Source: a virus
DNA length: 64,000 bases
Virus record (IMG/VR): IMGVR_UViG_3300032245_001860
Coordinates: 248,001 to 312,000 of that record
Strand: one strand, 5' to 3'
Below are positions 21,179 through 57,702 of the stretch, one piece after another. Every line of letters starts with the position of its first letter. Position 1 is the first letter of the stretch. A program made the translations under genes and the position numbers. Below the pieces are notes generated by a model that was not told where the DNA came from, searched no databases, and saw only the letters and a list, made by a program, of their open reading frames with translations.

Positions 21179-21840
21179 TGGGACTTGATCATTCTCCCTT
21201 AATTGTGACTGATGGATTGTCAGTATATCTTGATGCCGGAAACACAAGAAGCTATTCTGGATCTGGCACAACAGTATATGACTTGAGTGGATCTGGAAAC
21301 ACATCTGCGCTAACAAATGGGCCAACATATTCTTCTTCAAATTTAGGTTATTTTGTGTTAGATGGAACAAATGATTATATAAATGTAAATTCTCTCTCAA
21401 ATATTTTATCAAAGACAGCGTACACTAAAATTGCTTATTTTTATGTAACAAGTTTTTCTACTGCCAATAATATTGTTAGTGGTGGAGTTTCAGGCGAACA
21501 TGCATTTTGGTTAGCAGCTTCAAATAGATTGTATGGCGGTCACAATGGTGCATGGACCACTGTAACAGGAGGTACAATTCTTTCTTTGAATACATGGTAT
21601 TTTGGCGCAATATCATATAGTAGTTCAACTGGATGGAAGCTTTACTTAAATGGAAGAGAAGATGCTTCAAGTGCAAATACAACTACTTTCAATGGCAATC
21701 AAGAAATATTGATTGGTGCTTACGGTGCTGGAAATTACTTTACTGGAAGAATATCCAATGTTCAAGTTTACAACAGAGTATTATCCGCTACAGAAATAGT
21801 ACAAAATTACAATGCTACTAAAAAAAGGTATGGGCTTTAA
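21178..21840 (+). CDS. LamG-like adhesin 5
   Basis: This is a 220 aa single LamG domain: LSVYLDAGNTRSYSGSGTT, VYDLSGSGNTSAL, YFVLDGTNDYINV, NTWYFGAISYSS, WKLYLNGRED, and YNRVLSATEIVQNYNATKKRYG. It is similar in build to the first domain of the 442 aa fusion at 22520. TAATG overlap with the previous gene is retained. Confidence 0.8.
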   Translation: MGLDHSPLIVTDGLSVYLDAGNTRSYSGSGTTVYDLSGSGNTSALTNGPTYSSSNLGYFVLDGTNDYINVNSLSNILSKTAYTKIAYFYVTSFSTANNIVSGGVSGEHAFWLAASNRLYGGHNGAWTTVTGGTILSLNTWYFGAISYSSSTGWKLYLNGREDASSANTTTFNGNQEILIGAYGAGNYFTGRISNVQVYNRVLSATEIVQNYNATKKRYGL

Positions 21841-22520
21841 TGGGCATTGATTATAATAATGTTATCGTCACTGATGGATTAGCTGTTTATTTAGATGCAG
21901 CAAATTCAAGAAGCTATTCAGGCTCTGGAAATACTTGGTACAATTTAATTTCCGGGGCTATTGGTGGAACTATTGTAGGAGTAGGTTATTCTACTTTAAG
22001 TGGTGGGTATTTTAATTTTACAGGAAGTCAATATATGACTTTTGCTTCTACTCCACCAATAGGACAGTCAACTTTGTCTTCTACTGTTGAAATTATATCT
22101 TACAGGAATTCAGCTGGTCCATTTGAAGTTATGTTAGGAGGTGGCCCATATAGCTTGAATCAAAGTTACTGGTTTGGTCATCGTGCAAATAACAATAATT
22201 TTATGATGGCTCATTGGGCTAATGACTCTGATAGTGCTACCCCAACAACAAATATAGCTTGGAATCAATATGTTGCTGTTTTTGATAATAGTATAGGAAG
22301 AAGAGCTACATATTATAACAGTGCAATCTTGAATAATGAAGCATCTGGTGTGAACAATACATCTAATTCAAGTTATTTTTTAGGAGCATATAGAGAATCA
22401 GGTGGATCTCCTCAATATCATTATAGTGGGAGAATAGCTTCATTGAAAATTTACAATAGAGTTTTATCACAAGCAGAAATCACACAAAATTATAATGCCA
22501 TGAAAGCAAGGTTTAGATAA
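21840..22520 (+). CDS. LamG-like adhesin 6
   Basis: This is a 226 aa single LamG domain: LAVYLDAANSRSYSGSGNTW, YFNFTGSQYMTF, WNQYVAVFDN and YNRVLSQAEITQNYNAMKARF. The usual FDGTNDYI core reads FTGSQYMTF here, so this copy has changed at the segment that is otherwise most constant. It starts one base into the previous stop. Confidence 0.78.
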   Translation: MGIDYNNVIVTDGLAVYLDAANSRSYSGSGNTWYNLISGAIGGTIVGVGYSTLSGGYFNFTGSQYMTFASTPPIGQSTLSSTVEIISYRNSAGPFEVMLGGGPYSLNQSYWFGHRANNNNFMMAHWANDSDSATPTTNIAWNQYVAVFDNSIGRRATYYNSAILNNEASGVNNTSNSSYFLGAYRESGGSPQYHYSGRIASLKIYNRVLSQAEITQNYNAMKARFR

Positions 22521-23848
22521 TGGGAATATCTGCTGGACCCAATTCTATTTCTGATACTCTGGCATTTCATATTGATCCAGCTAACCCAAGATCGTATCCA
22601 GGCTCAGGAAATACAATTTATGATTTATCAGGCAATGGAAATACAAGTTTCTTTACCAATGGTGCATTTTACCAGAACTATTCAAAAGGTGCAGTAAATG
22701 TAGATGGAAATGATGACTATATTTCAACTCCTTTGTTCAATCTTACATCTCCAGTCACTGTTTCTGTATGGGTGAAGAATGTAATTAATGATTCTCCTGT
22801 TTTTAGTGCTTCTGGTCCTGGAGTTACCTACGGAAACAATGAGGTTATTCATTATTTTAGTGGTAAAAGCATTCTAATCGCTGGAAATCCTGCTGCTGGA
22901 AAATATTTTCAATTTCCGCAATTGAATTTGAACCAATGGTCTAATTTAGTGATGACCAGAGACGCCAGCAACAATATGTCAGTATATCTAAATGGAATAG
23001 GTTCTACATCAAACACACAATCATATTCTAACACCTTACAAATGAACCAGATAGGAAGATATTCTGCATTTACCAATATATATAATGCAAAAGGCTCAAT
23101 TGGTGAAGTAAAGATTTATAATCGTGCTTTATCAGCTTCAGAAGTTTTGCAAAATTATAATGCTTCCATAAAAAGATATTCACCAGAAGAAAATATTGTT
23201 ACTAATGGGTTAGTACTTAATTTAGACGCTGCAAATTATCTTTCTTATGCTGGTTCTGGAAATACAGCATTTGATTTGAGTGGTTTTGGAAATACTGCAA
23301 CTCTGGTTAATGGCACTGGATTTACTGGAACAAATGGTGGAACGTTTCTTTTCGATGCTACTAATGATTATATTAGTATAGGCACTGCTTCTTCTGTAAA
23401 ACCAACACAATTAACTTTTGCATGTTTATTTAAAATAAATGCAATAACATCGGTCAATGTAATAGCTGGAAAGCAAGGTGTTGGTAATGGTGCTGCATCT
23501 TACGCTTTAGTAGTACAAAATGGACAATTACATTTCAGGATAAGTAATTCAAGTGGCACAGAATACAATGCGTCAACTGCTTTTTCAAATACATCAAGTT
23601 ATAATTATGCAGTTGGGGCTTATGATGGTTCAAATTTAATACTTTATCTCAATGGGGCATCTGTAGGTGGTTCTTCCGTAGCTATTTCAATTGCATATTC
23701 TGACTCATATCCTTTGTTAATGGGTTATTATGCCAACTCGATTGCTACTAATATGAGTATTGGTTCTTTAAAACTATACAATCGAGTTTTATCTGCCCAA
23801 GAAATTCAACAAAACTTTAATGCTTTACGTGAGCGGTATAACATTTAA
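22520..23848 (+). CDS. Double LamG-like adhesin (two domains fused)
   Basis: This 442 aa protein is two complete LamG domains in one reading frame. Domain 1 (about 1-213) runs from LAFHIDPANPRSYPGSG to YNRALSASEVLQNYNASIKRY. Domain 2 (about 222-442) runs from LVLNLDAANYLSYAGSGNT to YNRVLSAQEIQQNFNALRERY. They are joined by about nine residues (SPEENIVTN) at the place where other members of the chain have stop plus start. This suggests loss of a stop/start junction, or conversely the ancestral state from which the chain was broken up. Confidence 0.8.
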   Translation: MGISAGPNSISDTLAFHIDPANPRSYPGSGNTIYDLSGNGNTSFFTNGAFYQNYSKGAVNVDGNDDYISTPLFNLTSPVTVSVWVKNVINDSPVFSASGPGVTYGNNEVIHYFSGKSILIAGNPAAGKYFQFPQLNLNQWSNLVMTRDASNNMSVYLNGIGSTSNTQSYSNTLQMNQIGRYSAFTNIYNAKGSIGEVKIYNRALSASEVLQNYNASIKRYSPEENIVTNGLVLNLDAANYLSYAGSGNTAFDLSGFGNTATLVNGTGFTGTNGGTFLFDATNDYISIGTASSVKPTQLTFACLFKINAITSVNVIAGKQGVGNGAASYALVVQNGQLHFRISNSSGTEYNASTAFSNTSSYNYAVGAYDGSNLILYLNGASVGGSSVAISIAYSDSYPLLMGYYANSIATNMSIGSLKLYNRVLSAQEIQQNFNALRERYNI

Positions 23849-23850
23849 TT

Positions 23851-24537
23851 ATGGGACTTGCACATTCTCCAGCTGTAATTGTCGATGGTTTAGTATTGTA
23901 TCTTGATGCATCCAATTCAAGGAGCTACTCTGGATCTGGACTTACTGTAAATGGGTTGGTTAGCGGTATTGGTGGATCTCTTATAAATGGGGTTGGATTT
24001 ACAAGCTCAAATAGTGGAAGTTTTGTTTTTGATGGCACTAATGATGGTATGTATTTCTCTACATATAATTTTTCAACTGGTGATTTTACTATGGAAGTTT
24101 GGTTGAAATTGAATGCATATCCACCTACTGCCAATTCAGCTATTATAGCTAATAGAAACGGCACAACTGACGATGGATGGCTTTTTGATATAAATAGTAA
24201 CCAAAAAGCCAGATTAGTTTTTCAAAATAATGCTGGCACTGTTTACACTATTGAAACTTTAGATATTATAAATTTGAATCAATGGACAAATCTCACTGCT
24301 ATAAGATCAAATACTTCCTTATCATTTTACAGAAATAGTATATTTCAAGCAAGTACATCCTTTCCGTCAAACTACAATATTAATTCGCCAATATCAAATG
24401 ATTATGTAGGTAGATATCAAAGTTCAAGTGGTTTTTTGAGTGGAAATATATCGAAAATACAATACTACAACAGAGCCTTATCATCCACAGAAGTCCTCCA
24501 AAATTATAACACTACAAGAAAGAGATTTGGATTGTAA
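23851..24537 (+). CDS. LamG-like adhesin 8
   Basis: This is a 228 aa single LamG domain: LVLYLDASNSRSYSGSG, SFVFDGTNDGMYFS, FTMEVWLKL, NQWTNLTAIRSN, LSFYRNSIF and YNRALSSTEVLQNYNTTRKRFG. It starts two bases after the previous stop rather than by overlap, the only break of the one-base overlap pattern within the nine-gene chain. Confidence 0.8.
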   Translation: MGLAHSPAVIVDGLVLYLDASNSRSYSGSGLTVNGLVSGIGGSLINGVGFTSSNSGSFVFDGTNDGMYFSTYNFSTGDFTMEVWLKLNAYPPTANSAIIANRNGTTDDGWLFDINSNQKARLVFQNNAGTVYTIETLDIINLNQWTNLTAIRSNTSLSFYRNSIFQASTSFPSNYNINSPISNDYVGRYQSSSGFLSGNISKIQYYNRALSSTEVLQNYNTTRKRFGL

Positions 24538-25250
24538 TGGCAGTAGGATATAACCCAAGCATTGTATCAGATGGATTAGCTTTGTATATAGATGCTGCTA
24601 ATCAAAGAAGTTATTCTGGATCTGGAAATACTTGGTACGACCTTTCTGCAAATTTAAACCATGCACAAAAAATTAATTCTCCAAATTACATAAATAATGC
24701 TGGAATTGGTTTTACATTTGATGGAAATGGAACTAATTATTTTGATCTTGATAGTAAGTCATCCTTAGTAAATGGCAATGCAGGAACTGTTGGTGGATGG
24801 GTTAGATTTAATTCTGCCCCAAATAATGCCAACTATGTTTTTGTCAGTTATGGTGGAAATGCATATGGCGGAGGTTTTTTGCTTATATATACAGGATTAG
24901 ATGGTGCAAATAGAGGACTTACATTTCAAGCTTTTGGTGGAAGTATAAGTCCTTCGGTTGATTGCGGTATTAGCTATGCTGCATCATCAATATACGCTGG
25001 ACAAGACATTCATATGGTTGCAACTTGGACCACATCTGAAGTCAAACTTTATTTAAACGGACAGCTCAAAGCTACAGCTGCAAACAATGCTGCAATTCCT
25101 TCAAAATCTACATTGAGAATAAGTAGTGAAGGCGGTAGATCAAGAGGTGTTAATGGCAACGTATACACTTGCTCAATCTACAATCGTGCCCTTTCACAAC
25201 AAGAAATTCTCCAAAATTTCAATGCTACAAGATTTAGATATGGAATATAA
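24537..25250 (+). CDS. LamG-like adhesin 9
   Basis: This is a 237 aa single LamG domain that ends the main chain: LALYIDAANQRSYSGSGNTW, YDLSANLNHAQKI, FTFDGNGTNYFDL, GTVGGWVRF, VKLYLNGQL and YNRALSQQEILQNFNATRFRYG. It overlaps the previous stop by one base. An 84-base gap with a possible promoter follows, so the transcript may end or restart here. Confidence 0.8.
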   Translation: MAVGYNPSIVSDGLALYIDAANQRSYSGSGNTWYDLSANLNHAQKINSPNYINNAGIGFTFDGNGTNYFDLDSKSSLVNGNAGTVGGWVRFNSAPNNANYVFVSYGGNAYGGGFLLIYTGLDGANRGLTFQAFGGSISPSVDCGISYAASSIYAGQDIHMVATWTTSEVKLYLNGQLKATAANNAAIPSKSTLRISSEGGRSRGVNGNVYTCSIYNRALSQQEILQNFNATRFRYGI

Positions 25251-34436: not shown

Positions 34437-35168
34437 ATGGGTCACTATTTTAACCCCAATATTCCAAAAGAAAATTTTCATTGGGCAGTTGATGCAGCAA
34501 ATATTCGTTCTTATAATGGAACTGGAACTGTCTGGTTTGATGTTGTTGATGCTAACAATTTAACTTTGACTAATACTCCAACATTCTCATCTTTAGGAGC
34601 AACTTCTAATTTTGCTTTCAATGGCTCAACGCAATATGCAGTAAATTCTTCTTTGATTAGTCCAGCTTTAATTCAAGGACCAATTACTGTCAATGTAATT
34701 TTTTCTCCAAATACTCTTACTGGCACCCAAAATGTATTTTCTTTATTTGACAATGTAAACAGGGCATTGCAAATTGGTTACAACGGAACAACAGGAGCTG
34801 TTTGGAAGTTTGGCGGAACATCATTAGTAACTTACAATTATGCTGGTGTTGGAACAGTATGGCATGTTACATACACATGTGATGGATCTAATAATTCCAA
34901 AGTTTATGTAAATGGTCAATTAAATAACTCTGGTGTTGTCGCTACTGATACAGGTACACCAGTTTATTACACTGTTGGTACTTATGGCGCTGGTGTAGGC
35001 CAGTTTTTTAATGGCAAAGTATATTATGCTTCTATACATAAAAAAGTATTTACAGATAGAGAAGTGGCTTCTATGTGGCATGCGCTAAGAAGAAGATATG
35101 GTTATGCAGGAATTGGTATTACGCCTGTTGGTGATGCTGTCGTTGGCGGACTCCAAGGAGGCCAATAA
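34437..35168 (+). CDS. LamG-like adhesin 10 with C-terminal extension
   Basis: This is a 243 aa LamG-type protein, more diverged than those at 18-25 kb: WAVDAANIRSYNGTGTVW, FAFNGSTQYAVN, VWHVTYTCDG, KVYVNGQL and FTDREVASMWHALRRRYG. About 23 Gly/Val-rich residues follow the domain, encoding a strong AAGGAGG ribosome site for the next gene. It begins a second, three-gene LamG group. Confidence 0.7.
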   Translation: MGHYFNPNIPKENFHWAVDAANIRSYNGTGTVWFDVVDANNLTLTNTPTFSSLGATSNFAFNGSTQYAVNSSLISPALIQGPITVNVIFSPNTLTGTQNVFSLFDNVNRALQIGYNGTTGAVWKFGGTSLVTYNYAGVGTVWHVTYTCDGSNNSKVYVNGQLNNSGVVATDTGTPVYYTVGTYGAGVGQFFNGKVYYASIHKKVFTDREVASMWHALRRRYGYAGIGITPVGDAVVGGLQGGQ

Positions 35169-35836
35169 TGGGTGGTGGTGTTGGTCCAGTAGGACAAGCA
35201 TTAGAAAATGTTGTTGTGAGAATTGATGCTGTTAACGCCAATTCATATTCAGGATCGGGAACAACTATTAACTCTTTACTTAATTCACAAACATTAAGCT
35301 CAAGTGGTGTGACTTTCATATCGGCAAAAGGCGAAAGCGTGTTTGTTTTTGGTGGCTCAGGATATGTTACATCATCTAATAATACTGGAGTATCAGGAAC
35401 TCAAAACAAAACCATGGCAGCATGGGTTAGATTTGGAACTAAAGGCACTCAAGGAAGTATGTCAACAGGTGCAAATGGTGCAGGTACAGGGATGGCATTG
35501 GCAACTTCAAGCAGTGTCATATTGTTAGGTTATGGCAATTCTGGCACATTAACTACATATTCTTATAATGCTCATCAATGGTATTACTTGGTATATACAA
35601 GTAGCTTAGTTTCTGGCTCAACCCATAATATTCAGTTGTATGTAAATGGTGGTTTAGCTCATTCTGCATTAGTTCCAAATATCAACTTGACAAATAATTC
35701 TCTACGAATTGGTTGTGACAATAGTGGTTTTGGCATGAGTGGTTTCATCTCAAGAGCAAATTTTTACAATAAAAGTTTATCGCCAAGAGAAATACAAAAG
35801 AACTATCAAAATTATAAAAATAGGTTTGGATTATAA
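35168..35836 (+). CDS. LamG-like adhesin 11
   Basis: This is a 222 aa LamG-type protein: VVRIDAVNANSYSGSGTT, SVFVFGGSGYVTSS in place of the FDGTNDYI core, MAAWVRFG, QWYYLVYTSS, IQLYVNGGL and YNKSLSPREIQKNYQNYKNRFG. It overlaps the previous stop by one base and has AAGGAGG eight bases upstream. Confidence 0.72.
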   Translation: MGGGVGPVGQALENVVVRIDAVNANSYSGSGTTINSLLNSQTLSSSGVTFISAKGESVFVFGGSGYVTSSNNTGVSGTQNKTMAAWVRFGTKGTQGSMSTGANGAGTGMALATSSSVILLGYGNSGTLTTYSYNAHQWYYLVYTSSLVSGSTHNIQLYVNGGLAHSALVPNINLTNNSLRIGCDNSGFGMSGFISRANFYNKSLSPREIQKNYQNYKNRFGL

Positions 35837-35837
35837 A

Positions 35838-36524
35838 ATGGGACAAAAAGGCGGACCTAACATACCATTTGAAAATTTACAATTTGTCTTTGATCCAAGA
35901 CACCCAAGCTCGTTGTCAGGAAATTATATAACTTTAATTGATTCAATAATAGGAAGCGCTACAGGAGCTACTCTTTCTGGAAGTGGAACAACTTTAGGAA
36001 TAAATTTCTCAGCAATTTCTGATACTTTAAATTTTGGAAATATATCAAAAATTAACCTGACTGCAAACCTTACAGTTATGGGATGGATTTATCCTAAAAG
36101 TTTTGGAGGTGGAAGCAGTGGAAGGATATTTGATAAGTTCAAGACTACCGTTCCTCAATCAGGATTTGCTTTATGGATTGATAATGCTATAGGAACAAAT
36201 GCAATTGTTTATGGTACTGGGTGGACTGTTAGTACTACAGTGGCAAGATTGAGTAACCAAGTAAATTTAAATACTTGGCAACACTTTGCTGCTGTGCACA
36301 GCGGAACAACTGTTACATTTTATAAAAATGGCTCTTCTATAGGTTCAAGTTCAAGTATTACAGCTCCTACATCAGGAAGTGTTAATGCATGTATTGGAAA
36401 TAACGCTGGTGGAACAAATAATTTTGATGGAATTTTAGGTGCAGTGAGAATTTACAGTCGTGCACTGTCTGCAACAGAAATATTGCAAACCTACAATTCT
36501 ACAAAATCAAAATTTGGTTTATAA
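35838..36524 (+). CDS. LamG-like adhesin 12
   Basis: The protein is 228 aa from the ATG at 35838, one base after the previous stop. The frame is open further upstream, but that would overlap the preceding gene and lacks the family start; MGxKxGPxI is the usual beginning in this group. LamG marks: LQFVFDPRHPSSLSG, LTVMGWIYPKS, NTWQHFAAVHSG, VTFYKNGSSI and YSRALSATEILQTYNSTKSKFG. Confidence 0.72.
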   Translation: MGQKGGPNIPFENLQFVFDPRHPSSLSGNYITLIDSIIGSATGATLSGSGTTLGINFSAISDTLNFGNISKINLTANLTVMGWIYPKSFGGGSSGRIFDKFKTTVPQSGFALWIDNAIGTNAIVYGTGWTVSTTVARLSNQVNLNTWQHFAAVHSGTTVTFYKNGSSIGSSSSITAPTSGSVNACIGNNAGGTNNFDGILGAVRIYSRALSATEILQTYNSTKSKFGL

Positions 36525-43434: not shown

Positions 43435-44055
43435 ATGATTTCTTTATGTATTACTCATCGAGTTGACGAGGATATATCTTGGGTTGAAGATATTTATGGT
43501 GATTTATTAATTTATAATAAAGGAGACGAATGGGATCTTCCATATCCTTGTCATGAGTCTCCCAAGATACCTAATGAAGTTGATACTTTTTTAAGGGGCA
43601 TTATTGAAGCTTATGATATTATGCCAAATTATAGATTTGTTTACCTTCTAAGACCTAATTGCAGACACTTTGATGAAGATGTTACATCTTATATAAGCAT
43701 AAATCAATACAATCAAGTTAATGATAATGAGATAGTTCCACTTGCTGATAAATTTTTTGATTTCAATTTAGATCAAGCTAAAAAAACTCTTAATGAGAAT
43801 CAAATATTAGTATTAGATTCTGTATTAGATATTATGAGTAAGTTAGGGATTAATTTGAATGATAAGACCTATTCATGCTCATATGGTTCTCAGTATTTTT
43901 TTAGTAGCCAGTTTGTAATCAATAAACCCAAAGAATGGTGGATTGCTGTGCATAGTATAGCTAATCAAATATATGAAAGTTTTGGAAATGATGTTTCTTA
44001 TATATTTGAAATTTTGTGGCCAATGATTCTAAGACATTCTTTAATTCAAGAATAA
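43435..44055 (+). CDS. DUF3431-like protein, copy 1
   Basis: This 206 aa protein belongs to a family with six members in this window. Shared marks: a first strand followed by xDEDISWVEDI (usually ARYNEDIxW), IYNKGDEWDLP, an Arg-Gly-Ile-Ile-Glu helix (FLRGIIEAYD), and the C-terminal KEWWIAVHSI...EILWPMIL. This is the most diverged copy: it lacks the GRE.ET and QGNPFDH motifs, having LRPNCRHFDED instead. The pattern resembles DUF3431, whose function is unknown. It precedes the superoxide dismutase gene by 11 bases. Confidence 0.65.
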   Translation: MISLCITHRVDEDISWVEDIYGDLLIYNKGDEWDLPYPCHESPKIPNEVDTFLRGIIEAYDIMPNYRFVYLLRPNCRHFDEDVTSYISINQYNQVNDNEIVPLADKFFDFNLDQAKKTLNENQILVLDSVLDIMSKLGINLNDKTYSCSYGSQYFFSSQFVINKPKEWWIAVHSIANQIYESFGNDVSYIFEILWPMILRHSLIQE

Positions 44056-44066
44056 TGTGAGTAATT

Positions 44067-44771
44067 ATGAATAATATTTTTGTTCCAAATAATTATATAA
44101 AATTAAGTTCTATAAAAGTTTCTAAAGACATAGAAGAAGCTTACAAGGAAAATAAAGGTTTTGAAGTTAAGTTAGAATTTAATGATTTACCATATGGTGA
44201 AAATGCCTTGTCTAAATCAATAGATGAAGAAACTATGAATCTACACCATGACAAACATCATAAGAAATATTTTGATAATTTAATGGAAGCCCTGTCAGAT
44301 CAAAACATAGACAATTTGAATGTGAATGATGTATTGTCTAATCTTGAAAAATATCCCAAGTCAATAAGAGAAAAGATTAGAAATAATGGTGGTGGTCACT
44401 TTAACCATGAGTTTTTTTGGAATCTAATGTCTCCAACACCTAAAACAAAACCTGAAGGTAAATTACTTCAAATGATTGAGAATCAATTTCAATCATTTGA
44501 AAATTTTAAAGAAGAATTTATTCAAACTGGCTTAGATAGATTCGGATCAGGCTGGGTATGGCTTTGCGTAAACAATGGAAAATTAAAATTGTCATCTATG
44601 CCAAATCAAGATAATCCAATAATTGAGAAATGCGGAGTGCCTTTGGTTGGATGTGATGTTTGGGAACATGCATATTACTTAAAATATAAGAATGACAGAG
44701 AGGCATACTTAAAAGCCTGGTTTGATGTTTTAAACTGGGATTTTCCTGAAAAAATTATATCAAAATTGTAA
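44067..44771 (+). CDS. Fe/Mn superoxide dismutase
   Basis: The protein has 234 aa. The iron/manganese superoxide dismutase pattern is complete: LPYGENALSKSIDEETMNLHHDKHH near residues 48-70 (first metal His), GGHFNHEFFWNLMSP (second His), GSGWVWLCV, and the DVWEHAYYLKYKNDR signature with the last Asp and His ligands. It converts superoxide to oxygen and hydrogen peroxide. An extra ~40 N-terminal residues precede the usual enzyme start. They are not an obvious signal peptide. It sits between two DUF3431-like genes and near ferritin-like and Fe-S genes. Fe versus Mn preference cannot be read off. Such enzymes are rare in phages. Confidence 0.9.
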   Translation: MNNIFVPNNYIKLSSIKVSKDIEEAYKENKGFEVKLEFNDLPYGENALSKSIDEETMNLHHDKHHKKYFDNLMEALSDQNIDNLNVNDVLSNLEKYPKSIREKIRNNGGGHFNHEFFWNLMSPTPKTKPEGKLLQMIENQFQSFENFKEEFIQTGLDRFGSGWVWLCVNNGKLKLSSMPNQDNPIIEKCGVPLVGCDVWEHAYYLKYKNDREAYLKAWFDVLNWDFPEKIISKL

Positions 44772-44789
44772 ATTTGTATAATTTTTTTT

Positions 44790-45452
44790 ATGAAAGACAG
44801 ATTGGTTGTAATTGCAAGATATAATGAAAATTTAGATTGGTTAAAAAATCTAAATAATCCTTTTATGGTCTACAATAAAGGCCAAGAATTTCCATATGAA
44901 ATAATTAGAAAAGACATTCCTAATAAGGGTAGAGAAGCAGAGACATATATTAGATCAATCATTGAAAATTATTCTGTGCTGAGTCAATATAAATATATGG
45001 TTTTCTTGCAAGGAAATCCATTTGATCATTGCCAGGATTTATACAACAAAATAAATTCATATGATAATGAAAATACTTTTGATTACTTATCTGAATTAAA
45101 TGGCGAAGTGCAATTTGATAAAATTTTATACTTAAGAGATCATTCTGTTTCTTTAATTGATTGTTTATTGAATCAAAGTTATGTAAATCAATCAGGTGCA
45201 GTAAAAACACTTTTATTGTTAAATCTAATCGGTATCAAATTACAATCTTGTCAATGGAGTTATGCATGTGGTGCTCAATATATAGTTCCAACCAAAATAA
45301 TTCTAAATAAATCTATAGAATGGTGGATGCATTTTTATAGAATTTTTCAATGCTATTCTACTTCAGCCCCTAATGACTTTGCTTACATATTGGAATTGAC
45401 TTGGCCGATTATATGGAATTTTTCTGACAATACAAAGGAAGAATCATATTAA
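44790..45452 (+). CDS. DUF3431-like protein, copy 2
   Basis: The protein has 220 aa. All family motifs are present: VIARYNENLDWLKNL, FMVYNKGQEFPYE, KGREAETYIRSIIENYSVL, MVFLQGNPFDHCQDL, SYACGAQYIVPTKIIL, and IEWWMHFYRIF...ELTWPIIW. The regular order of a strand/loop with conserved N-E, a GREAET helix and an aromatic C-terminus suggests an enzyme-like fold, but no catalytic role is known for DUF3431. It lies 18 bases after the superoxide dismutase gene. Confidence 0.72.
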   Translation: MKDRLVVIARYNENLDWLKNLNNPFMVYNKGQEFPYEIIRKDIPNKGREAETYIRSIIENYSVLSQYKYMVFLQGNPFDHCQDLYNKINSYDNENTFDYLSELNGEVQFDKILYLRDHSVSLIDCLLNQSYVNQSGAVKTLLLLNLIGIKLQSCQWSYACGAQYIVPTKIILNKSIEWWMHFYRIFQCYSTSAPNDFAYILELTWPIIWNFSDNTKEESY

Positions 45453-45465
45453 TGCAAATAATAAG

Positions 45466-45475
45466 TATATAAGAG
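45466..45475 (+). promoter_or_regulatory. Candidate promoter motif TATATAAGAG
   Basis: TATATAAGAG lies about 20 bases before the ATG of the ferritin-like gene at 45496, in a 43-base gap that also holds the GGAG ribosome site. It shares its core with sites at 36532 and 53290. Confidence 0.35.
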
Positions 45476-45495
45476 ATTTTCGGAGATCAAAAAAA

Positions 45496-45870
45496 ATGAA
45501 TTTTGTTACTAATTTACTTACAATGCATAATCAATTCAAAGTTTATCATTGGCAAACACAAAGAAAAGTCGGAAGTTTTGCTCAACATAATGCTTTTGGC
45601 ACAGCATATGATGATTTAACTGATCACATTGATGATTTTATTGAGATATATCAAGGTAAACGTGGTGCAATAATTGGTAAAAATGGCTTTACAATTAATC
45701 TACAAAATCTTGATGATAATCCTGTTGCTTTTGTTGATGAATTCATTAGCTATTTAACTCAACATGTAACAGAAGCGCTTGATCCTGTTGCTGACACTGA
45801 TTTATTAAATATTAGAGATGAAATGCTTGGTATTTTGAACCAGACAAAGTACCGTTTAAATATGAAGTAG
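45496..45870 (+). CDS. Ferritin-like / Dps-like small protein (DUF5856 type)
   Basis: This 124 aa helical protein has HNQFKVYHWQTQ near residues 11-22 and FAQHNAFGTAYDDLTDHIDDF at 28-48, the layout of the first two helices of a ferritin-like fold. His, Glu and Asp residues could bind metal. It resembles the phage family DUF5856. Iron binding is suggested by the fold and by neighbouring superoxide dismutase and permease-like genes, but is not shown. The start has GGAG upstream; the next gene begins directly after its stop. Confidence 0.7.
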   Translation: MNFVTNLLTMHNQFKVYHWQTQRKVGSFAQHNAFGTAYDDLTDHIDDFIEIYQGKRGAIIGKNGFTINLQNLDDNPVAFVDEFISYLTQHVTEALDPVADTDLLNIRDEMLGILNQTKYRLNMK

Positions 45871-46245
45871 ATGAATCAACTTAATGAAAAAATTGCCATC
45901 ATTTTTACTAAATGTTTTGGCAATATGTTTACATTCTGGGCATTTTGTGGCTGGGCATTTTTACCATTGATTCCAGTTTTATCTAATTACAAAGAAACAA
46001 TTTTATACATAAGCAGCGGGTTTATACAACTCGCTGCTCTTCCTTTAATAATGGTTGGTCAAGAAGTTTTAGGTCGTGATTCTGAAAAAAGATCTTTAAA
46101 AGACCATGAAATGATACAAACTCAATTTTATAGAATGGAAGATGCAATGGATAAATTAGGCTTGATATTAGAAGAAATAAGAGAATTGCATTTACATACA
46201 CATAAAATGCTCAAGAAAGATAATGATGTCCCAGAAGACTTATAA
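45871..46245 (+). CDS. Two-helix membrane protein, low-affinity iron permease-like
   Basis: The protein has 124 aa. Two hydrophobic segments, about residues 16-37 (FGNMFTFWAFCGWAFLPLIP) and 44-63, are followed by QEVLGRDSEKRSLKDHEMI and a helical tail with LHLHTHKML. The FWAF...W....GQ....RD.....D order matches small bacterial proteins of the low-affinity iron permease type (PF04120-like). Transport by a two-helix protein is unproven; it may be a membrane adaptor. It begins immediately after the ferritin-like gene's stop, so the two are likely co-expressed. Confidence 0.55.
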   Translation: MNQLNEKIAIIFTKCFGNMFTFWAFCGWAFLPLIPVLSNYKETILYISSGFIQLAALPLIMVGQEVLGRDSEKRSLKDHEMIQTQFYRMEDAMDKLGLILEEIRELHLHTHKMLKKDNDVPEDL

Positions 46246-46468
46246 TAGTTATTATGATTCTGATGGTGTAAAAGCAATGGTCGCTAAAAAATTAGCAACT
46301 TTAGAACTTTCCAATGGTGAGATGAAAAAAAGCTTAGAGTTTTCTCTCAATCTTGATACAGAGCAATTAAAAAATATATATAAAAACCTGTCCAAAAATC
46401 AGCAAAAAACCAAATTTGGACAGGCTATAAAAATGATCATAGAAATCAAAGAAGAGTTTTATTTATAA
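46223..46468 (+). CDS. Small helical hypothetical protein
   Basis: This is an 81 aa charged, mostly helical protein. It overlaps the end of the membrane-protein gene by 23 bases, and begins with two adjacent ATGs (46223 and 46226), so the start is uncertain by one codon. It ends convergently with the Fe-S carrier gene, overlapping it by 10 bases. A 10-bp inverted repeat (46387-46396 with 46415-46424) lies inside. No family recognised. Confidence 0.5.
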   Translation: MMSQKTYNSYYDSDGVKAMVAKKLATLELSNGEMKKSLEFSLNLDTEQLKNIYKNLSKNQQKTKFGQAIKMIIEIKEEFYL

Positions 46469-46839
46469 CCACAACCCCCGCAAGTGTCGTACTCTTCTCC
46501 TTCTATAGAGAAACTTTTGTTACATCCACAAGTTTTTGCAGCGTTTGGATTTTCTACCTTAAATCCAGATTGCATTCCATTTTCTTGATAATCTATAACA
46601 CATCCATTGACATATTTTGCTGAACTATATTCTACTGCAATTTTTATATCTTTATCATAAACTATAATGTCATCGATTTCAGGCTCACCTTCTGCTAAAG
46701 CAAGTCCATATTGTAATCCTGAACATCCTCCACCAGACACATAAAAAGCAAGATAAGCATCAGAAACAGATTGATCTTCTATAGTGTTCAAAATAATTTT
46801 AGCTGCAGTTTCAGTTAAAGAAATATTTAAATCATTCAT
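46459..46839 (-). CDS. A-type iron-sulfur carrier (IscA/HesB family)
   Basis: This 126 aa protein has the three conserved cysteines of A-type Fe-S carriers: GGGCSGLQYGL (about residues 32-42) and CGCNKSF (about 108-114), with NPNAAKTCGC before the pair. These proteins hold and hand over iron-sulfur clusters. An unusual tail adds YDTCGGCGYK, giving two more cysteines than the family usually has. GAGGT lies five bases before the ATG and overlaps the stop of the upstream gene (46842-47717), so the two are coupled. Related carriers are known in some T4-like cyanophages. Confidence 0.85.
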   Translation of the reverse strand: MNDLNISLTETAAKIILNTIEDQSVSDAYLAFYVSGGGCSGLQYGLALAEGEPEIDDIIVYDKDIKIAVEYSSAKYVNGCVIDYQENGMQSGFKVENPNAAKTCGCNKSFSIEGEEYDTCGGCGYK

Positions 46840-48463: not shown

Positions 48464-48491
48464 GAAAATAATTATACTGTTAAATGAAAAG

Positions 48492-48516
48492 GGACAGGAT
48501 GAGATCAATCCTGTCC
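48492..48516 (-). terminator. Intrinsic terminator of the large ncRNA
   Basis: On the minus strand GGACAGGAT and ATCCTGTCC form a perfect 9-bp stem with a seven-base loop, followed by CTTTTCATTT. It lies 28 bases before the methyltransferase ATG, so read-through could still supply that gene. Confidence 0.75.
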
Positions 48517-49048
48517 AAGCAGTTTCGTTTACAGGATTACGATACTCGCAACTTATATCTTGCCTGTTGATCCACTTAAAAAAGTCAAACTGCACAACCG
48601 CCTTATTATACTGGTGGCATTTCCAGTCTTATATTAGGTCTTTTACTGAAATTACATAATAAATCGTTAAAATAATAGGTAACAATTTATTTTTTTTACT
48701 TGTTGCAAAAGTGTATTTTCATAAGCCAGGTTGTTTATTCCTAATACGAGATATGTCTATTTCTTGGGTAGATAAAGCCGTCAAATCTTCATCTTAACAC
48801 GCCAGTTGCGCTTGCTTTCGTCATAAGCTATACCCGCTCTCTACAGAAGTGTGCATATCTTGTTGCTCCTGAATAAGGAATACAACTCACTTCAATGTCT
48901 ACTGCATCACGAAGCAAGTAGACCTGATTTCAAGATTCTATTAGTTTTGAAATTTATAGAAACTAATAAACCTTTAATCATGCTATACAGCCCTTGACCG
49001 TGACTTCTCGGACCATATAACTACCTTTATTTTCTTAGACTTTAATGC

Positions 49049-49084
49049 CGCTGATTGATACATATATTCAGCGTTTATATGTAT
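49049..49084 (-). other. Possible H-type pseudoknot inside the ncRNA
   Basis: On the minus strand ATACATATA (49084-49076), AA, CGCTGA (49073-49068), A, TATATGTAT (49066-49058), CAA, and TCAGCG (49054-49049) interleave two perfect helices of 9 and 6 bp. Either helix alone is also possible. The three-base last loop is tight for a full 9-bp helix, so a shorter first helix is likelier if the pseudoknot forms. Confidence 0.5.
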
Positions 49085-49253
49085 GTTTTCATCTCCATCA
49101 TAGTTCCAGGTTTCGGGCCTGAAACTCACAGAAAACAGGCTTGCTTGAACGACCATTACTGGCGGGAGCAGTAGAGAATTGCTTTATCCCTTTTTTATAT
49201 CTCACGATGTCAAGCCACCGAAATTGTTATTCAATTGTTAAAATACAAATATT

Positions 49254-49281
49254 ATTATATTGTTATTGATATTTTTGTCAA
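49254..49281 (-). promoter_or_regulatory. Consensus sigma-70 promoter for the ncRNA
   Basis: The minus strand reads TTGACA (49281-49276), 16 bases, TATAAT (49259-49254). Both hexamers are perfect. Transcription would start near 49247. The -35 box overlaps the stop codon of the upstream DUF3431-like gene. This host-type promoter differs from the TATAAG-like sites elsewhere and suggests expression by host polymerase, perhaps early. Confidence 0.8.
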
Positions 49282-49997
49282 TCACCTTTTGAAGGGTCAT
49301 ATTCAAAAATCAATGGCCATAAATTTTCAAATGTTCCTGACATTCTGATACCTGTCCCAATTGGATTATTAGCAATCACAATCAATTTATATAAACATGC
49401 CCACCATTCGTAAGGCTTATTTATAATCTTTGAAACTGGTACAATATGTTGAGCTCCAGAACCCCATTGATACGATCTTCCTTTATATGGGATATCCATC
49501 ATTTTGCAAACAAAAGAAACTAAAGCGAGATCAGTTGCTACAATTTCAGATTCTTCAATATGATCGTCATAAATTAATGGGCATGTTATTTTTTCTTCTG
49601 GGCAAAATATTTTTCTGATTAAAATATTATAAAAACCATTTATGTAAAAATCATCATCATTTGCAAATTCAAAAGGATTACAATGTGTGGTTAGAGGCAT
49701 ATAAGTGTCTTTATTAGCATTATTTATTATATCAATTGTATTTGCACAATGGTCAAATGGGTGTCCTTGTAAAAAAATTACAGTTTCTAATAAATGCAAT
49801 TGATCATAATTTTCTAAAATACCACGAAGAAATGCTTCTGCTTCTCGCCCAATATTAGGAGAATCTATTTTATGAATTTCAGGCCAAAGCCAGTCCTCTC
49901 CATGATTATATATAATATAATATGTCTTGAGATTTTTTATCCATTGAATGTCTTCATCATATCTGCATACTATAGTTAGCTTTTTGTAGTCTTGCAT
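49278..49997 (-). CDS. DUF3431-like protein, copy 3
   Basis: The protein is 239 aa from the ATG at 49997; an in-frame TTG at 50015 would add six residues. Motifs: TIVCRYDEDIQWIKNL, YIIYNHGEDWLWPEI, NIGREAEAFLRGILENYDQL, VIFLQGHPFDHCANT, QWGSGAQHIVPVSKII, and YEWWACLYKLI...ENLWPLIF. It keeps all family motifs with small changes (CRYDED, NHGED). It is a solitary copy, just upstream of the ncRNA promoter. Function unknown. Confidence 0.7.
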   Translation of the reverse strand: MQDYKKLTIVCRYDEDIQWIKNLKTYYIIYNHGEDWLWPEIHKIDSPNIGREAEAFLRGILENYDQLHLLETVIFLQGHPFDHCANTIDIINNANKDTYMPLTTHCNPFEFANDDDFYINGFYNILIRKIFCPEEKITCPLIYDDHIEESEIVATDLALVSFVCKMMDIPYKGRSYQWGSGAQHIVPVSKIINKPYEWWACLYKLIVIANNPIGTGIRMSGTFENLWPLIFEYDPSKGD

Positions 49998-50043
49998 ATA
50001 TTTTTTATAAAACAATTGGCATTTGTATTTTGGATATATGAAA

Positions 50044-50505: not shown

Positions 50506-51138
50506 ATGCCGATAACACTTTCAGATGCTCTCATATTTACTCTTGCTTGGGAAGGAGGATTTACTAATCACCCTCTTGACCCTGGTGGAGCTACAAATTT
50601 TGGTATCATTCAAACAAGATATGATGAATATCGCAAATTCAAAAAACTGAAAACCCAAACAGTAAAGCTTATTACCAAAGAAGAATACACAGAAATTTAT
50701 GATAAATATTATTGGGATCCAGTAAGAGCTCAATATTTGTTGGGACCTTTAGGGCTTGCATTATTTGATACAGCAGTAAATTTGGGTGTAGGTGGAGCTC
50801 TAAGCAGATTGCAGTCTTCCATGAAATTGCCTGTCACTGGTAAATGGACCCAAAACATAAGTGACAAAATACATGATGCTAATCAATTGGATATAGCAAT
50901 CAATATTTGTAAGCTAAGAATAGCAAAAAGATATGCAAGGGTCAAACAAAGACCAGATCAAGTTGTCTTCTTAAAAGGATGGCTCAATAGAGATAATGCT
51001 TTATTGAGAAAAGTCAAATCTTTAGGTGGAATTTCTGTTTTGTCTATTGAGCCAGGTTACGATTTTGATTTAGAAGAGATTACTAATGAGTTTAATACAG
51101 ATCTTCTGAAGGAACTGGAAGCTTTTGATTTGGATTAG
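50506..51138 (+). CDS. Endolysin, GH108-type muramidase with peptidoglycan-binding part
   Basis: The protein has 210 aa. The N-terminus carries the GH108 hallmark WEGGFTNHPLDPGGATNFGI at residues 15-34, with Glu16 as the catalytic acid. A second conserved part, LALFDTAVNLGVGGALSRLQ followed by LPVTGKWT (about 85-120), fits the PG_binding_3 region that accompanies this family. It cleaves glycan strands of peptidoglycan for lysis. There is no signal peptide, so a holin is expected, but none is evident nearby. A strong GGAGGT precedes the ATG. Its last 47 bases overlap a convergent DUF3431-like gene. Confidence 0.85.
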   Translation: MPITLSDALIFTLAWEGGFTNHPLDPGGATNFGIIQTRYDEYRKFKKLKTQTVKLITKEEYTEIYDKYYWDPVRAQYLLGPLGLALFDTAVNLGVGGALSRLQSSMKLPVTGKWTQNISDKIHDANQLDIAINICKLRIAKRYARVKQRPDQVVFLKGWLNRDNALLRKVKSLGGISVLSIEPGYDFDLEEITNEFNTDLLKELEAFDLD

Positions 51139-51826
51139 GTTGGTGATTCCAAATAGATAGCCACACTCTTTCGCAATATGCAGCTATTTCATCACCTGGA
51201 TTTATAGACTTCCAATCTTTAATCAATGTGTAAAATTCAGTCCACCATTCAAAATTTTTAGATTTGATATATGATGTGGGCACTATATATTGCGCTCCAG
51301 CAGAATAGGTAATTTCCTTAGAAGATAAATCTAATCCTAACATTTGGGCAAAAAATACAGAAGTGCTAATTTCTAAACCTCTGTCATCATTTAAGTCTAT
51401 GTCTCCAGACAATTTTGTAAATGTTGCTGAAGGGGCAAATTGCTTTCTGAAAAGTTTACATATTGTTGCAGCTTCAAAATTAAAGTACGCTCTGTCACTT
51501 GGAAGTTTGTAAGTGACCATTGAATTTGCTAAAAATACAATTTCATTTGAATTGTATTCGTTTATGGATTCGACTGGGTCATCATCATGGTCAAAAGGAT
51601 TCCCTTGAATGAAAATAACACAATCATAATCATCCAGCATTTCATAGCATTCGACAATAGCTCTTGCGTAAGTTTCACACTCTCTGCCATAATTTTCAAT
51701 ATCAACTCTTGGAATATCTTCCCAAGGCCAATTTTCGCCTTTATTATAGATTAATATATCTCCATCTAATTCTTTAGACCATTCAATGTCCTCATTGTAT
51801 CTTGCTATAATTGTTAATTTTTTCAT
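51092..51826 (-). CDS. DUF3431-like protein, copy 4
   Basis: The protein is 244 aa from the ATG at 51826, which overlaps the previous copy's stop as ATGA. The open frame runs 18 codons further upstream, but that would overlap the neighbour. Motifs: TIIARYNEDIEWSKEL, ILIYNKGENWPWEDIPRVD, NYGRECETYARAIVECYEML, VIFIQGNPFDHDDD, TYSAGAQYIVPTSYI, and FEWWTEFYTLI...ERVWLSIWNH. Its 3' end runs 47 bases into the endolysin gene on the other strand. It is last of a three-copy tandem array. Confidence 0.72.
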   Translation of the reverse strand: MKKLTIIARYNEDIEWSKELDGDILIYNKGENWPWEDIPRVDIENYGRECETYARAIVECYEMLDDYDCVIFIQGNPFDHDDDPVESINEYNSNEIVFLANSMVTYKLPSDRAYFNFEAATICKLFRKQFAPSATFTKLSGDIDLNDDRGLEISTSVFFAQMLGLDLSSKEITYSAGAQYIVPTSYIKSKNFEWWTEFYTLIKDWKSINPGDEIAAYCERVWLSIWNHQPNPNQKLPVPSEDLY

Positions 51827-52536
51827 AAGTCTGAGTGTTGCCAAATTAATGGCCAAATCCTTTCTAAAATATATGTCCAAGCAATTTCATTCTTTTCTTT
51901 GCACAAATAATAAAATAAGTAATGAAGATTTTTCCACCATTCTAATGATTTGTTGGTAATTAAAAACGAGGGAACTGTGTATTGTGCCCCAACAGCCCAA
52001 TAATTATCTTTATCTTGATGATCTAATCCCAAGATTGTACACATTGTCACATTGTCTAAAAACCAATTTTTATTTGGTTCTTGATTTGTCACAGTGTTAG
52101 TATTCAAATCTAATTTTTGATATTTAGGAATAAATTCTTCATTCAAGTGATCTAAGTTCAGCATGCAATTTATTATGGAAGGATGAATATTGAATATTCT
52201 TCTATTGTCATTGTAAATATCTCTATTAATTGAATTAGACAAAGCAAGTATTTCATTTTTTTCATTATTGTTGATCATTTGAATAATATCTGGGCAATGA
52301 TCAAAAGGATTTCCTTGCACAAAAGATATCAAATCATAATCTTTGAAAACTTCATAAAATTCAATAACGGCTCTGACAAAAGTTTCACCTTCTCTGCCAT
52401 AATTTTCAATGTTTATTCTGGGAATATTTTCATAAGGCCAATCATCACCTTTATTATAAATAACAATATCTCCAGACAATTCTTTAGACCATTCAATGTT
52501 TTCATTGAATCTTGCAATAATTGTTAGCTTTTTCAT
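51823..52536 (-). CDS. DUF3431-like protein, copy 5
   Basis: The protein is 237 aa from the ATG at 52536 (ATGA overlap with the previous stop). Motifs: TIIARFNENIEWSKEL, IVIYNKGDDWPYENIPRIN, NYGREGETFVRAVIEFYEV, ISFVQGNPFDHCPDI, YWAVGAQYTVPSFLI, and LEWWKNLHYLF...ERIWPLIWQH. N-terminal thirds of copies 4, 5 and 6 are close to each other, while the middle parts (about residues 95-165) differ strongly. Confidence 0.72.
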   Translation of the reverse strand: MKKLTIIARFNENIEWSKELSGDIVIYNKGDDWPYENIPRINIENYGREGETFVRAVIEFYEVFKDYDLISFVQGNPFDHCPDIIQMINNNEKNEILALSNSINRDIYNDNRRIFNIHPSIINCMLNLDHLNEEFIPKYQKLDLNTNTVTNQEPNKNWFLDNVTMCTILGLDHQDKDNYWAVGAQYTVPSFLITNKSLEWWKNLHYLFYYLCKEKNEIAWTYILERIWPLIWQHSDL

Positions 52537-53246
52537 AAGTCTTTGTGATCCAAAATTAGAGGCCAAATACGTTCTAATGCATATGTCCAAGATTCAATTT
52601 GTTTATATTTGGAAATATATTCGAAAATCATATGCAAATTTTCCCACCATTGTTTACTTTTATACTTAATATTTTTTATTGGTACTATATATTGACCACC
52701 ATTAGCCCATTCAACAATCTTATTTTGATAATCTATATCTAATATAGAGCACAATCCCATGGTTTCTTCAAATAAAAAGAAATCTGTGTTTGATTGATTT
52801 CTACTTAATTCATTTGGATTGCAGTAATCAATCTTTGATTTGAATGACTTATCTTCAATTTGAAGTAAAATATTTATGATTGAAAAATGTTTACCATTGA
52901 TGAAGTCATCTGACGGGTATTGGTCTTTAGAAACAAAATCAGATATTTTTACAATAGAGTTCTTGAATGAAAAATTTATAACTTTTTTGAAATCTTTGCA
53001 ATGCTCTTGTGGATTACCTTGCAAAAAAACTACATTGTCATAATGGTCTAAATTTTCATAAAATTCTATGATAGCCCTGACAAAAGTTTCACCTTCTCGG
53101 CCATAGTTTTCAGTATCTATTCTTGGTATATCTTTCCATGGCCAATCTGTGCCTTTATTATAGATGACAATATCTCCATCTAAATCTCTTGCCCATTTAA
53201 TATCTTCATTATATCTGGCAACTATAATCAAGTTTTTGGGACTCAT
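52533..53246 (-). CDS. DUF3431-like protein, copy 6
   Basis: This is a 237 aa protein, first of the tandem trio. Motifs: IIVARYNEDIKWARDL, IVIYNKGTDWPWKDIPRID, NYGREGETFVRAIIEFYENL, VVFLQGNPQEHCKDF, EWANGGQYIVPIKNI, and KQWWENLHMIF...ERIWPLILDH. QGNPQEH replaces QGNPFDH here. No strong ribosome site precedes the ATG. The divergent gene at 53321 begins 74 bases away. Confidence 0.72.
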   Translation of the reverse strand: MSPKNLIIVARYNEDIKWARDLDGDIVIYNKGTDWPWKDIPRIDTENYGREGETFVRAIIEFYENLDHYDNVVFLQGNPQEHCKDFKKVINFSFKNSIVKISDFVSKDQYPSDDFINGKHFSIINILLQIEDKSFKSKIDYCNPNELSRNQSNTDFFLFEETMGLCSILDIDYQNKIVEWANGGQYIVPIKNIKYKSKQWWENLHMIFEYISKYKQIESWTYALERIWPLILDHKDL

Positions 53247-56169: not shown

Positions 56170-57702
56170 ATGGATAAAAAAATATTAGATAACTTGAATG
56201 AAATTTCAATGGTTTTTGAAGATTTAGGTATGGATAAGCAAGCAGATATTGTTAATGAAATTTTTCTTAAAGTCGCTAAAAAGAAAGCTAAAAAGAAGAA
56301 TGTCCCAACCAATCCTTCTTTGTGGTCAGAATGTAAAGCTTGGGCTAAAAGAACATTTGATGTATATCCTTGCGTACCATTAGATTCTATGGCACTAACT
56401 AAAAAAGGTTGGGCTGAATATTCTGATTTGAATATTGGGGATGAAATTCTTACTTACAATCAAAAGATAGATAAACTTGAATGGAAACCTATTATTGATC
56501 TACATTTCTACGAAGATGCTCCTACTTTAAGCTTAAAAAAATTGCAAACAAATTTTAAAGTAAGGTGTACTCCTGATCACAAGTGGGTTTTGAAAACATA
56601 TAATTCAAAATATCCTGACAGTTTAGTACAAGCAAAAAATATTACAAAAAGAATGAGTCTAAAAACAGCTGCTGAAATAGTTGATGACGTAAACGAAAAT
56701 TTAAATTTATCTAATTGGAGAAAAGGTGACGATTGGGTTGAAAATGTCTTAAAAATGTCAAAAACTCAATTAGAAGCTTTTTTTGCAGCTGGTATTGTTT
56801 ATGATGGCAATGATAAAGGTTTGTCATCATTGAATAGAAGCACTTATGGTTTTTCTCAGAAAAATATAAATCATGGTGAAGCTATGGAAATTGCTGCTGT
56901 ACTTTTAGGATACAGAGTTTCGTTTGTTCAGAAAATGCACAATATGGAAATGAAATCATGGACATTTATCAAACGTGATTCTGAAAGCACTGGCAATCTT
57001 ATTATTGAAGAAGATTTAAATTGTGATGTTTGGTGCCCTCAAACTGAAAACAATACTTGGGTCATGAAACAAGGAAGAATTATTACCATTACTGGAAATA
57101 GTGCCTACGCCAATGGTGCTGCAGCCAAAAGATATAAATCAAAGGGCGGCGGATGGAAAAAAGCAAGCTCTGATTCTAACATGAGATTAGCTCAGGAAGT
57201 TACAGAAACACCAATCACTTCTTTTAATCTTCCTGGTGGCGAATCTGATCAAGCTTTTGAAAAAAATCCACAATCAATATATCAACAAGCTATCAATCAA
57301 ATTAAGAATTTAATTGTTTCAAATAAAAGAAAAGATGCTAATGATGTGTTTTCATATTATTTTAATGGCACAGATTTAAGTCCAGCTCAAAAAACAGCAT
57401 TGCAAAATCAATACAATTCTATTTTGGATAGATTTACAAGCAAAGACAAAGACTTTAATTTATCTAATCCTATGGCTCAACAATACCTATTAGAAGAAGA
57501 CACAAAAGCAAATACTTATGTAGCTAATTTTATCAAGAGATTAGGAATACCCAAGGCTCAAATAACTAATAATTCAAAAGCATTCAGTGATATCTCAAAA
57601 TTGATATCAACGATTAAGGATATTAATATCAGATACAAAGCTATTGATGTCCTTAAGGGTATTGTAAATATGAATTCTCAAACCTCAAGAGTAAAACCAT
57701 AA
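56170..57702 (+). CDS. Phage protein with SAYAN motif, interrupted by an intein
   Basis: This is a 510 aa precursor. The host protein is residues 1-67 plus 311-510 (267 aa after splicing). Its N-terminus is the shared helical module (ILDNLNEISMVFEDLGMDKQ, FLKVAKK). Residues 50-67 joined to 311 onward would read LWSECKAWAKRTFDVYP-SAYANGAAAKRYK followed by KGGGW. That VYPSAYAN...YK..GGGW motif is common in phage proteins and normally uninterrupted. The remaining ~170 residues are helical and unrecognised. The intein is described separately. The stop overlaps the next start by one base. Role in head or virion is inferred from the shared N-terminus and neighbours. Confidence 0.75.
   Translation: MDKKILDNLNEISMVFEDLGMDKQADIVNEIFLKVAKKKAKKKNVPTNPSLWSECKAWAKRTFDVYPCVPLDSMALTKKGWAEYSDLNIGDEILTYNQKIDKLEWKPIIDLHFYEDAPTLSLKKLQTNFKVRCTPDHKWVLKTYNSKYPDSLVQAKNITKRMSLKTAAEIVDDVNENLNLSNWRKGDDWVENVLKMSKTQLEAFFAAGIVYDGNDKGLSSLNRSTYGFSQKNINHGEAMEIAAVLLGYRVSFVQKMHNMEMKSWTFIKRDSESTGNLIIEEDLNCDVWCPQTENNTWVMKQGRIITITGNSAYANGAAAKRYKSKGGGWKKASSDSNMRLAQEVTETPITSFNLPGGESDQAFEKNPQSIYQQAINQIKNLIVSNKRKDANDVFSYYFNGTDLSPAQKTALQNQYNSILDRFTSKDKDFNLSNPMAQQYLLEEDTKANTYVANFIKRLGIPKAQITNNSKAFSDISKLISTIKDINIRYKAIDVLKGIVNMNSQTSRVKP
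56371..57099 (+). mobile_element. Intein (243 aa) within the SAYAN-motif gene
   Basis: It begins with Cys68 (CVPLDSMALTKKGW, splicing block A), has block B as VRCTPDHKWVL (Thr134, His137) and ends ITGN, with Ser311 as the first downstream residue. DVWCPQTENNTWVMKQGRII before the end fits block F. The penultimate residue is Gly instead of the usual His, a known variation. Between B and F, about residues 198-250 (LEAFFAAGIVYDGNDKG, then GFSQKNINHGEAMEIAAVLL) look like a single degenerate LAGLIDADG-type part, so homing activity is doubtful. Splicing is predicted from the intact Cys, Thr/His, Asn and Ser positions. Confidence 0.88.

Follow-up and report, generated by a model that had tools for sequence, protein, structure and literature searches.

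We have identified a giant RNA in a virus record of 315,852 bases. On sequence grounds it is a full-length GOLLD-type RNA of ~740 nt, encoded on the minus strand at about positions 48,482-49,247 of the window, i.e. the 64,000-base stretch analyzed here (bases 248,001-312,000 of the record). Comparison with ordinary GOLLDs indicates that in this RNA and its two homologues the P18-P21 block is lost, with ~100 nt of A/U-rich sequence in its place. The explanation that we hold with considerable confidence is that a phage GOLLD-type RNA is transcribed from its own promoter, ends at hairpin P27 and would self-assemble with altered contacts.

Background

The GOLLD RNA env-38, as resolved by cryo-EM, is a closed, protein-free, hollow 14-mer in which 5' domains form the caps, 3' domains form the rings and the variable linker lies inside (PMC12286853). 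Intermolecular bridges and induction in lysis have been reported for GOLLD, and the RNA is reported to bind ribosomes in pull-downs (PMC12286853). Among the bridges, B7, which lies within a half-shell, is made by L20, and the half-shells are bridged to each other by self-kissing of loops L21a and L21b (PMC12286853). ROOL, another giant RNA associated with phages, likewise builds hollow homo-oligomers (PMC12286853, PMC12191101). ROOL RNAs of different origin assemble as tetramers, hexamers or octamers on a conserved architecture (PMC12191101). An earlier note on the present DNA had proposed a large structured noncoding RNA, read from the minus strand under its own promoter and terminator, and had left GOLLD among the options for its identity.

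Methods

Rfam models were run at gathering scores and at lax thresholds; the GOLLD (RF02032) gathering cut-off of 150 bits is a curatorial value. Because the window RNA scored only 38.3 bits with the Rfam GOLLD model and L118, one of its homologues, gave no match, three covariance models were made from other viral GOLLDs: R1 for the 3' tip (25 sequences), R2 for a 5'-domain hairpin (6 sequences) and R3 for the 5' end (14 sequences). All training sequences came from viral GOLLDs with Rfam scores of 112-323 bits, except for L131, which was accepted as a GOLLD on account of its 3' tip, its layout and the tRNA embedded in it. L118 was retrieved in a scan with a pattern built on the GOLLD-like end, and the second homologue, L225, in a scan with a pattern for the 5'-domain motif. 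Half of a set of 29 viral GOLLDs served to train a sequence profile of the ordinary P17 block. The window RNA and L118 were given a common written-out fold of 135 pairs, pseudoknots included, and every pair can form in both. Since this structure was derived from the same sequences, re-folding of column-shuffled alignments was added. Helices were numbered from topology rather than from the env-38 sequence.

Results

Locus, promoter and terminator

The upstream neighbor of the RNA is a minus-strand gene with a Pfam DUF3431 match (49,278-50,015), and its downstream neighbor is a methyltransferase-like gene, also on the minus strand, with a likelier ATG start at 48,461; a GTG start called mechanically at 48,595 would extend the latter ORF into the RNA. 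The interval between them had been described as free of any credible gene, which is borne out by 11-20 stops in every frame between 48,501 and 49,215 (longest open run, 66 codons) and by indels among the window RNA, L118 and L225 that are mostly non-multiples of three and break the reading frames. The codon-like pattern of change that had been named as grounds for refutation is absent. A lower AT content than the surroundings had also been claimed; this is true relative to the neighboring genes (29-31% GC), but the interval (34.8% GC; RNA, 36.9%) is equal to the whole-window mean of 34.8%.

A sigma-70-type promoter, TTGACA-N16-TATAAT, lies on the minus strand at 49,281-49,254, its -35 element overlapping the stop codon of the upstream gene. 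As previously described, it is perfect (12/12), and it is the sole perfect N16 match in 64 kb, where 0.08 would be expected by chance. The -10 element is kept at the same place in the homologues (TATAAT in L118, TATAAG in L225); the -35 is not conserved. Transcription would begin at ~49,247, and conservation extends from CGGUGG (49,220) to the terminator, where the RNA presumably ends. The 9-bp terminator hairpin (GGACAGGAUUGAUCUCAUCCUGUCC) was correctly recognized in the earlier note, although the tail (CUUUUCAUUU), which had been called T-rich, is only moderately U-rich; hairpin end and tail occupy 48,492-48,482. The same hairpin doubles as P27, the last structural hairpin of the RNA.

No tRNA was found in the linker of the RNA or elsewhere in the 64-kb window, the record's five tRNAs sitting at 5-9 kb of 316 kb, and ARAGORN detected no tmRNA. 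Six ORFs around the RNA look alike by eye (43,435-44,055; 44,790-45,452; 49,278-50,015, the DUF3431 gene; 51,092-53,246) and apparently represent an expanded family of unknown function. An Fe/Mn superoxide dismutase, a ferritin-like DUF5856 protein and an A-type Fe-S carrier are encoded nearby at 44,067-46,839. Two further observations, made by eye only, concern a small phage protein ORF at 56,170-57,702 with an intein-like middle (starting CVPLDSMALTKKGW, then SAYANG), and serial similar ORFs of ~210-260 residues (one of 442) at 18,416-25,250 and 34,437-36,524, which resemble tandem lectin-like (LamG-type) proteins and lie beside very long repetitive tail-type proteins.

Homologues

Two homologues were recovered. 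L118, from a 358,269-base virus contig, is 72% identical to the window RNA over 798 columns; L225 (positions 1,639-2,367 of a phage-like, 5,807-base contig binned in a Rickettsiaceae MAG) is 70% identical to it over 766 columns and 80% identical to L118. The bin of L225 may be a host hint or a binning error, and the 263 genomes of that MAG's order held no second copy of the RNA. By eye, the RNA is placed between the same two genes in L118 and L225, and the window homologue of the gene upstream of it there (45% identity) is one gene away. Both also share, judged by eye from similarity to the window proteins at 44,067-46,839, an Fe-S carrier, a ferritin-like protein and a superoxide dismutase near the RNA.

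No further clade member was found in viral scans, a genome scan or two annotated collections, and blastn against phage and plasmid records returned no homologue. Relatives sought through flanking proteins were limited to L118's record and contig L121, the latter without the RNA. Class-specific patterns retrieved L118 alone, or L118 with four chance matches that lacked GOLLD features, and an initial wide pattern had yielded a mixture of true GOLLDs and chance matches.

Folding and covariation

The minus strand folds more stably than shuffled sequence (MFE z = -4.6, versus -2.9 for the plus strand), and folding of the three-sequence alignment likewise favors it, at -153.6 kcal/mol compared with -125.2 kcal/mol for the plus strand and -77.5 +/- 7.1 kcal/mol for column-shuffled minus-strand alignments. 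Both measures agree with the orientation first proposed. In the written-out fold, 32 of the 135 pairs have changed on both sides between the window RNA and L118, a count that falls to 0-3 if the pairing partners are displaced by one to three columns. Re-folding of this two-sequence alignment gave 35 compensatory pairs (10.0 +/- 3.0 in re-folded shuffles) at -137.7 kcal/mol (-68.0 +/- 5.9). With L225 included, compensatory changes occur in 46 base pairs, against 12.9 +/- 4.4 in re-folded shuffles, so that the covariation whose absence had been put forward as a refutation is present. Together, the covarying fold, the promoter and the terminator uphold the claim of a large structured noncoding RNA with its own signals on the minus strand.

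Architecture of the RNA

All parts are described 5' to 3' on the minus strand. The 5' domain (48,896-49,220), by analogy the 'cap' of the GOLLD cage, contains P1 and helices with compensatory changes. P1 is the hairpin CGGUG-GCUUGA-CAUCG (49,205-49,220); downstream of it, at 49,190-49,182, comes the GOLLD motif GGGAUAAAG. A second hairpin, GUAGU..GGUCCGAG..GUCAAGGGCU..GC (48,971-49,027), is common to ordinary GOLLDs and is the subject of model R2. The helix GAAGUG/CACUUC around hairpin GUUGUAUUCCUUAUUCAGGAGCAAC (48,846-48,893) probably corresponds to P13, a name given by topological match to GOLLD. A linker-closing helix, with 5' strand AGAUAUG at 48,854-48,860 and partner CAUAUCU at 48,755-48,749, forms a pseudoknot with P13 and shows a compensatory U-A to C-G change in L118. 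The variable linker (48,767-48,827) is 49% identical between the window RNA and L118 and, unlike that of many GOLLDs, carries no tRNA.

P17 pairs UAUUAGG (48,746-48,740) with CCUAAUA (48,638-48,632) and has two compensatory pairs between the window RNA and L118. Its interior (48,639-48,739) consists of ~100 nt of A/U-rich sequence that includes a hairpin with the conserved loop GCAACAA and a variable stem-loop. The P22 hairpin, ACUGG-AAAUGCCA-CCAGU (48,598-48,627), has a compensatory pair in its stem, and its loop AAAUGCCA also occurs in the GOLLD L131. The L22 loop appears to form a pseudoknot with a downstream partner (UGCC:GGCG), which can be drawn in both the window RNA and L118 with invariant pairs. 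Helices P23, P24 and P26 (48,519-48,593) hold the invariant GOLLD letters GUGGAUNA, GCAA and UAAUC and are covered by model R1. The terminal hairpin P27 (48,492-48,516) has the GOLLD loop UGAUCUCA (ordinarily UAAUCUCA) and is extended into the terminator stem, with the tail running to 48,482.

Invariant columns among the three homologues make up 58% of the 5' domain, 88% of the P13 block (48,895-48,827) and 75% of P22-P27; the P17 interior (35%) and the linker (31%) are the least conserved parts. Two candidate contacts were discarded. One, suggested by alifold, was a long-range pairing of the linker with J22/23; a single pair in it has changed on both sides, but it is incompatible with the putative L22 pseudoknot. 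The other was a self-kissing contact through the palindromic UGCA loop that the window RNA and L118 have inside P17; in L225 the loop reads AGCA.

Relationship to GOLLD

Rfam called no family in the window at gathering scores. The Rfam search of the interval that had been suggested earlier gave a GOLLD match below the cut-off at a lax threshold (38.3 bits, against 150, over 48,712-48,496 and partly on A/U-rich sequence) and no match at all, even at E<=10, to ROOL, OLE, HEARO, tmRNA or group I intron. The GOLLD model found nothing in L118 at E<=1 or in a search of the whole record, where the match was presumably lost in speed filters, and L225 was not among its calls.

The purpose-built models gave a different result, with E-values that are somewhat optimistic because the blocks were picked after the similarity to the window RNA had been noticed: R1 had its sole window match (E<=10) at 48,602-48,494 (E=1.3e-5; top rank in the 316-kb record), and L118 also ranked top in its 358-kb record (E=2.8e-8); R2 had its sole window match (E<=10) at 49,027-48,971 (40.1 bits, E=7.7e-10; L118, E=1.5e-7); and R3 was best in the window at 49,223-49,176, weakly on its own (E=0.048; L118, E=7.3e-5). 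The three matches are collinear, in 5'-to-3' order. A GOLLD-type 5' domain is thus recognized by R2, and the conserved GOLLD 3' tip (P23-P27, with GUGGAUNA, UAAUC and the UAAUCUCA loop) by R1, which decides in favor of a GOLLD-type RNA the identity that had been left open. An indirect check, less exposed to the choice of blocks, is the retrieval of GOLLDs by a degenerate pattern of the R2 motif. Run through IMG/VR, it returned 77 viral stretches; a GOLLD 3' tip was present at 48 of the 72 new loci, and of 16 pattern-found loci run on Rfam, all except L172 and L225 were called GOLLD.

R1 scores 36 bits in the window RNA and 45 bits in both L118 and L225. The 14 members called by Rfam reach comparable values (26-50 bits), so the tip does not account for the missing Rfam score. 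Ordinary GOLLDs have several stem-loops in the block between the P17 strands. The profile of this block found 13 of 14 held-out GOLLDs (E<=0.0027), missing L037, and matched none of the window RNA, L118 and L225. The 3' domain is accordingly incomplete by comparison with GOLLD: the stretch from P17 to P22, where the published numbering would place L20, L21a and L21b, is not recognizable as the ordinary block. The rebuilt P17 interior is the main reason that Rfam misses the window RNA at the cut-off, and with 38.3 bits against 150 we file it as a GOLLD-type variant rather than an Rfam-grade GOLLD.

Shared with GOLLD are the 5'-end motif, the 5'-domain hairpin, P13 and the linker-closing helix, P17, P22 with a putative loop pseudoknot, the P23/P24/P26 letters, the P27 loop, a phage-borne location and size (~730-740 nt, compared with 692-838 nt estimated in other viral GOLLDs). 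The window RNA differs in a P17 interior that is roughly 40-60 nt shorter (the anchors are only approximately equivalent), in the extension of P27 into the terminator, in the absence of a linker tRNA and in scoring 38 bits with Rfam where bona fide viral GOLLDs score 112-323. Its R2 hairpin recurs in L054, L077, L080, L131 and the loci retrieved by the R2 pattern. Those among them that were read by eye also have a P22 hairpin with a downstream loop pseudoknot. Unlike the window RNA, these GOLLDs retain an ordinary interior in P17 and score 188-229 bits with Rfam, and many have a tRNA in the linker. The resemblance to ROOL lies in size, phage association and an assembly that is only predicted here; the Rfam search at E<=10 gave no ROOL match.

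As a separate observation, L172 (5,677-6,320 of a 478,840-base virus contig) is a GOLLD-type RNA with 34.8 bits for R1 and no Rfam call at gathering score, in which the ordinary P17 block seems, by eye, to be present.

Discussion

In the explanation that we favor, the RNA would be transcribed from its own promoter and end at the hairpin that is also P27. Several copies would then come together in a protein-free assembly held by the 5' domain and the P22-P27 region, as in env-38 GOLLD, with the variable linker inside. Because the parts that form cap and core are kept, self-assembly is likely by analogy; because the P17-P22 block is rebuilt, contacts between neighboring 3' domains and between half-shells would have to differ. 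The resulting assembly might be a modified cage or an open half-shell, and its role is probably GOLLD's general one late in infection, as presumed for the family. A changed stoichiometry would have a precedent in the varied stoichiometry of ROOL. More tentatively, and short of an even chance, the three RNAs could constitute a giant-phage GOLLD clade with a different quaternary structure, such as an open half-shell or another subunit number, arising from replacement of the loops that would join 3' domains and half-shells.

It is conceivable, though rather unlikely, that this GOLLD-derived RNA no longer forms a cage and that its 5' and 3'-tip folds serve another job as a monomer or small oligomer, e.g. 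binding ribosomes or a phage protein. The block expected to carry the subunit- and half-shell-joining loops is unrecognizable in all three members, and GOLLD is reported to bind ribosomes in pull-downs (PMC12286853), both of which would fit. However, the constraint on the 5' domain (58% invariant columns) and P22-P27 (75%) is strong, and ROOL varies its stoichiometry while retaining its architecture (PMC12191101), so that altered contacts do not necessarily imply a loss of contacts. We give very little credence to an unrelated new class of giant RNA whose GOLLD-like 3' tip arose by convergence: although Rfam makes no call at gathering score and the central part of the 3' region does not resemble GOLLD, two RNAs match at sequence level, in order, at the 5'-domain hairpin, the 3' tip and, more weakly, the 5' end, the 5'-motif pattern brings up Rfam GOLLDs, and details such as GGAUAAAG, GUGGAUNA, UAAUC and the P27 loop are held in common. 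Nothing was found in favor of a protein-coding region, or of a decayed one, that has no function as RNA; the covariation refutes this reading, and stops in all frames, frame-breaking indels, promoter and terminator further oppose it.

The RNA described here shows that GOLLDs of giant phages escape database searches at curated cut-offs. GOLLD is among the few natural RNAs shown to form a hollow cage free of protein. The clade described here amounts to a natural experiment in which cap and 3' core are kept while the block at the expected joining loops is different. Set beside that of env-38, its assembly would tell which contacts are indispensable and whether function depends on a closed cage.
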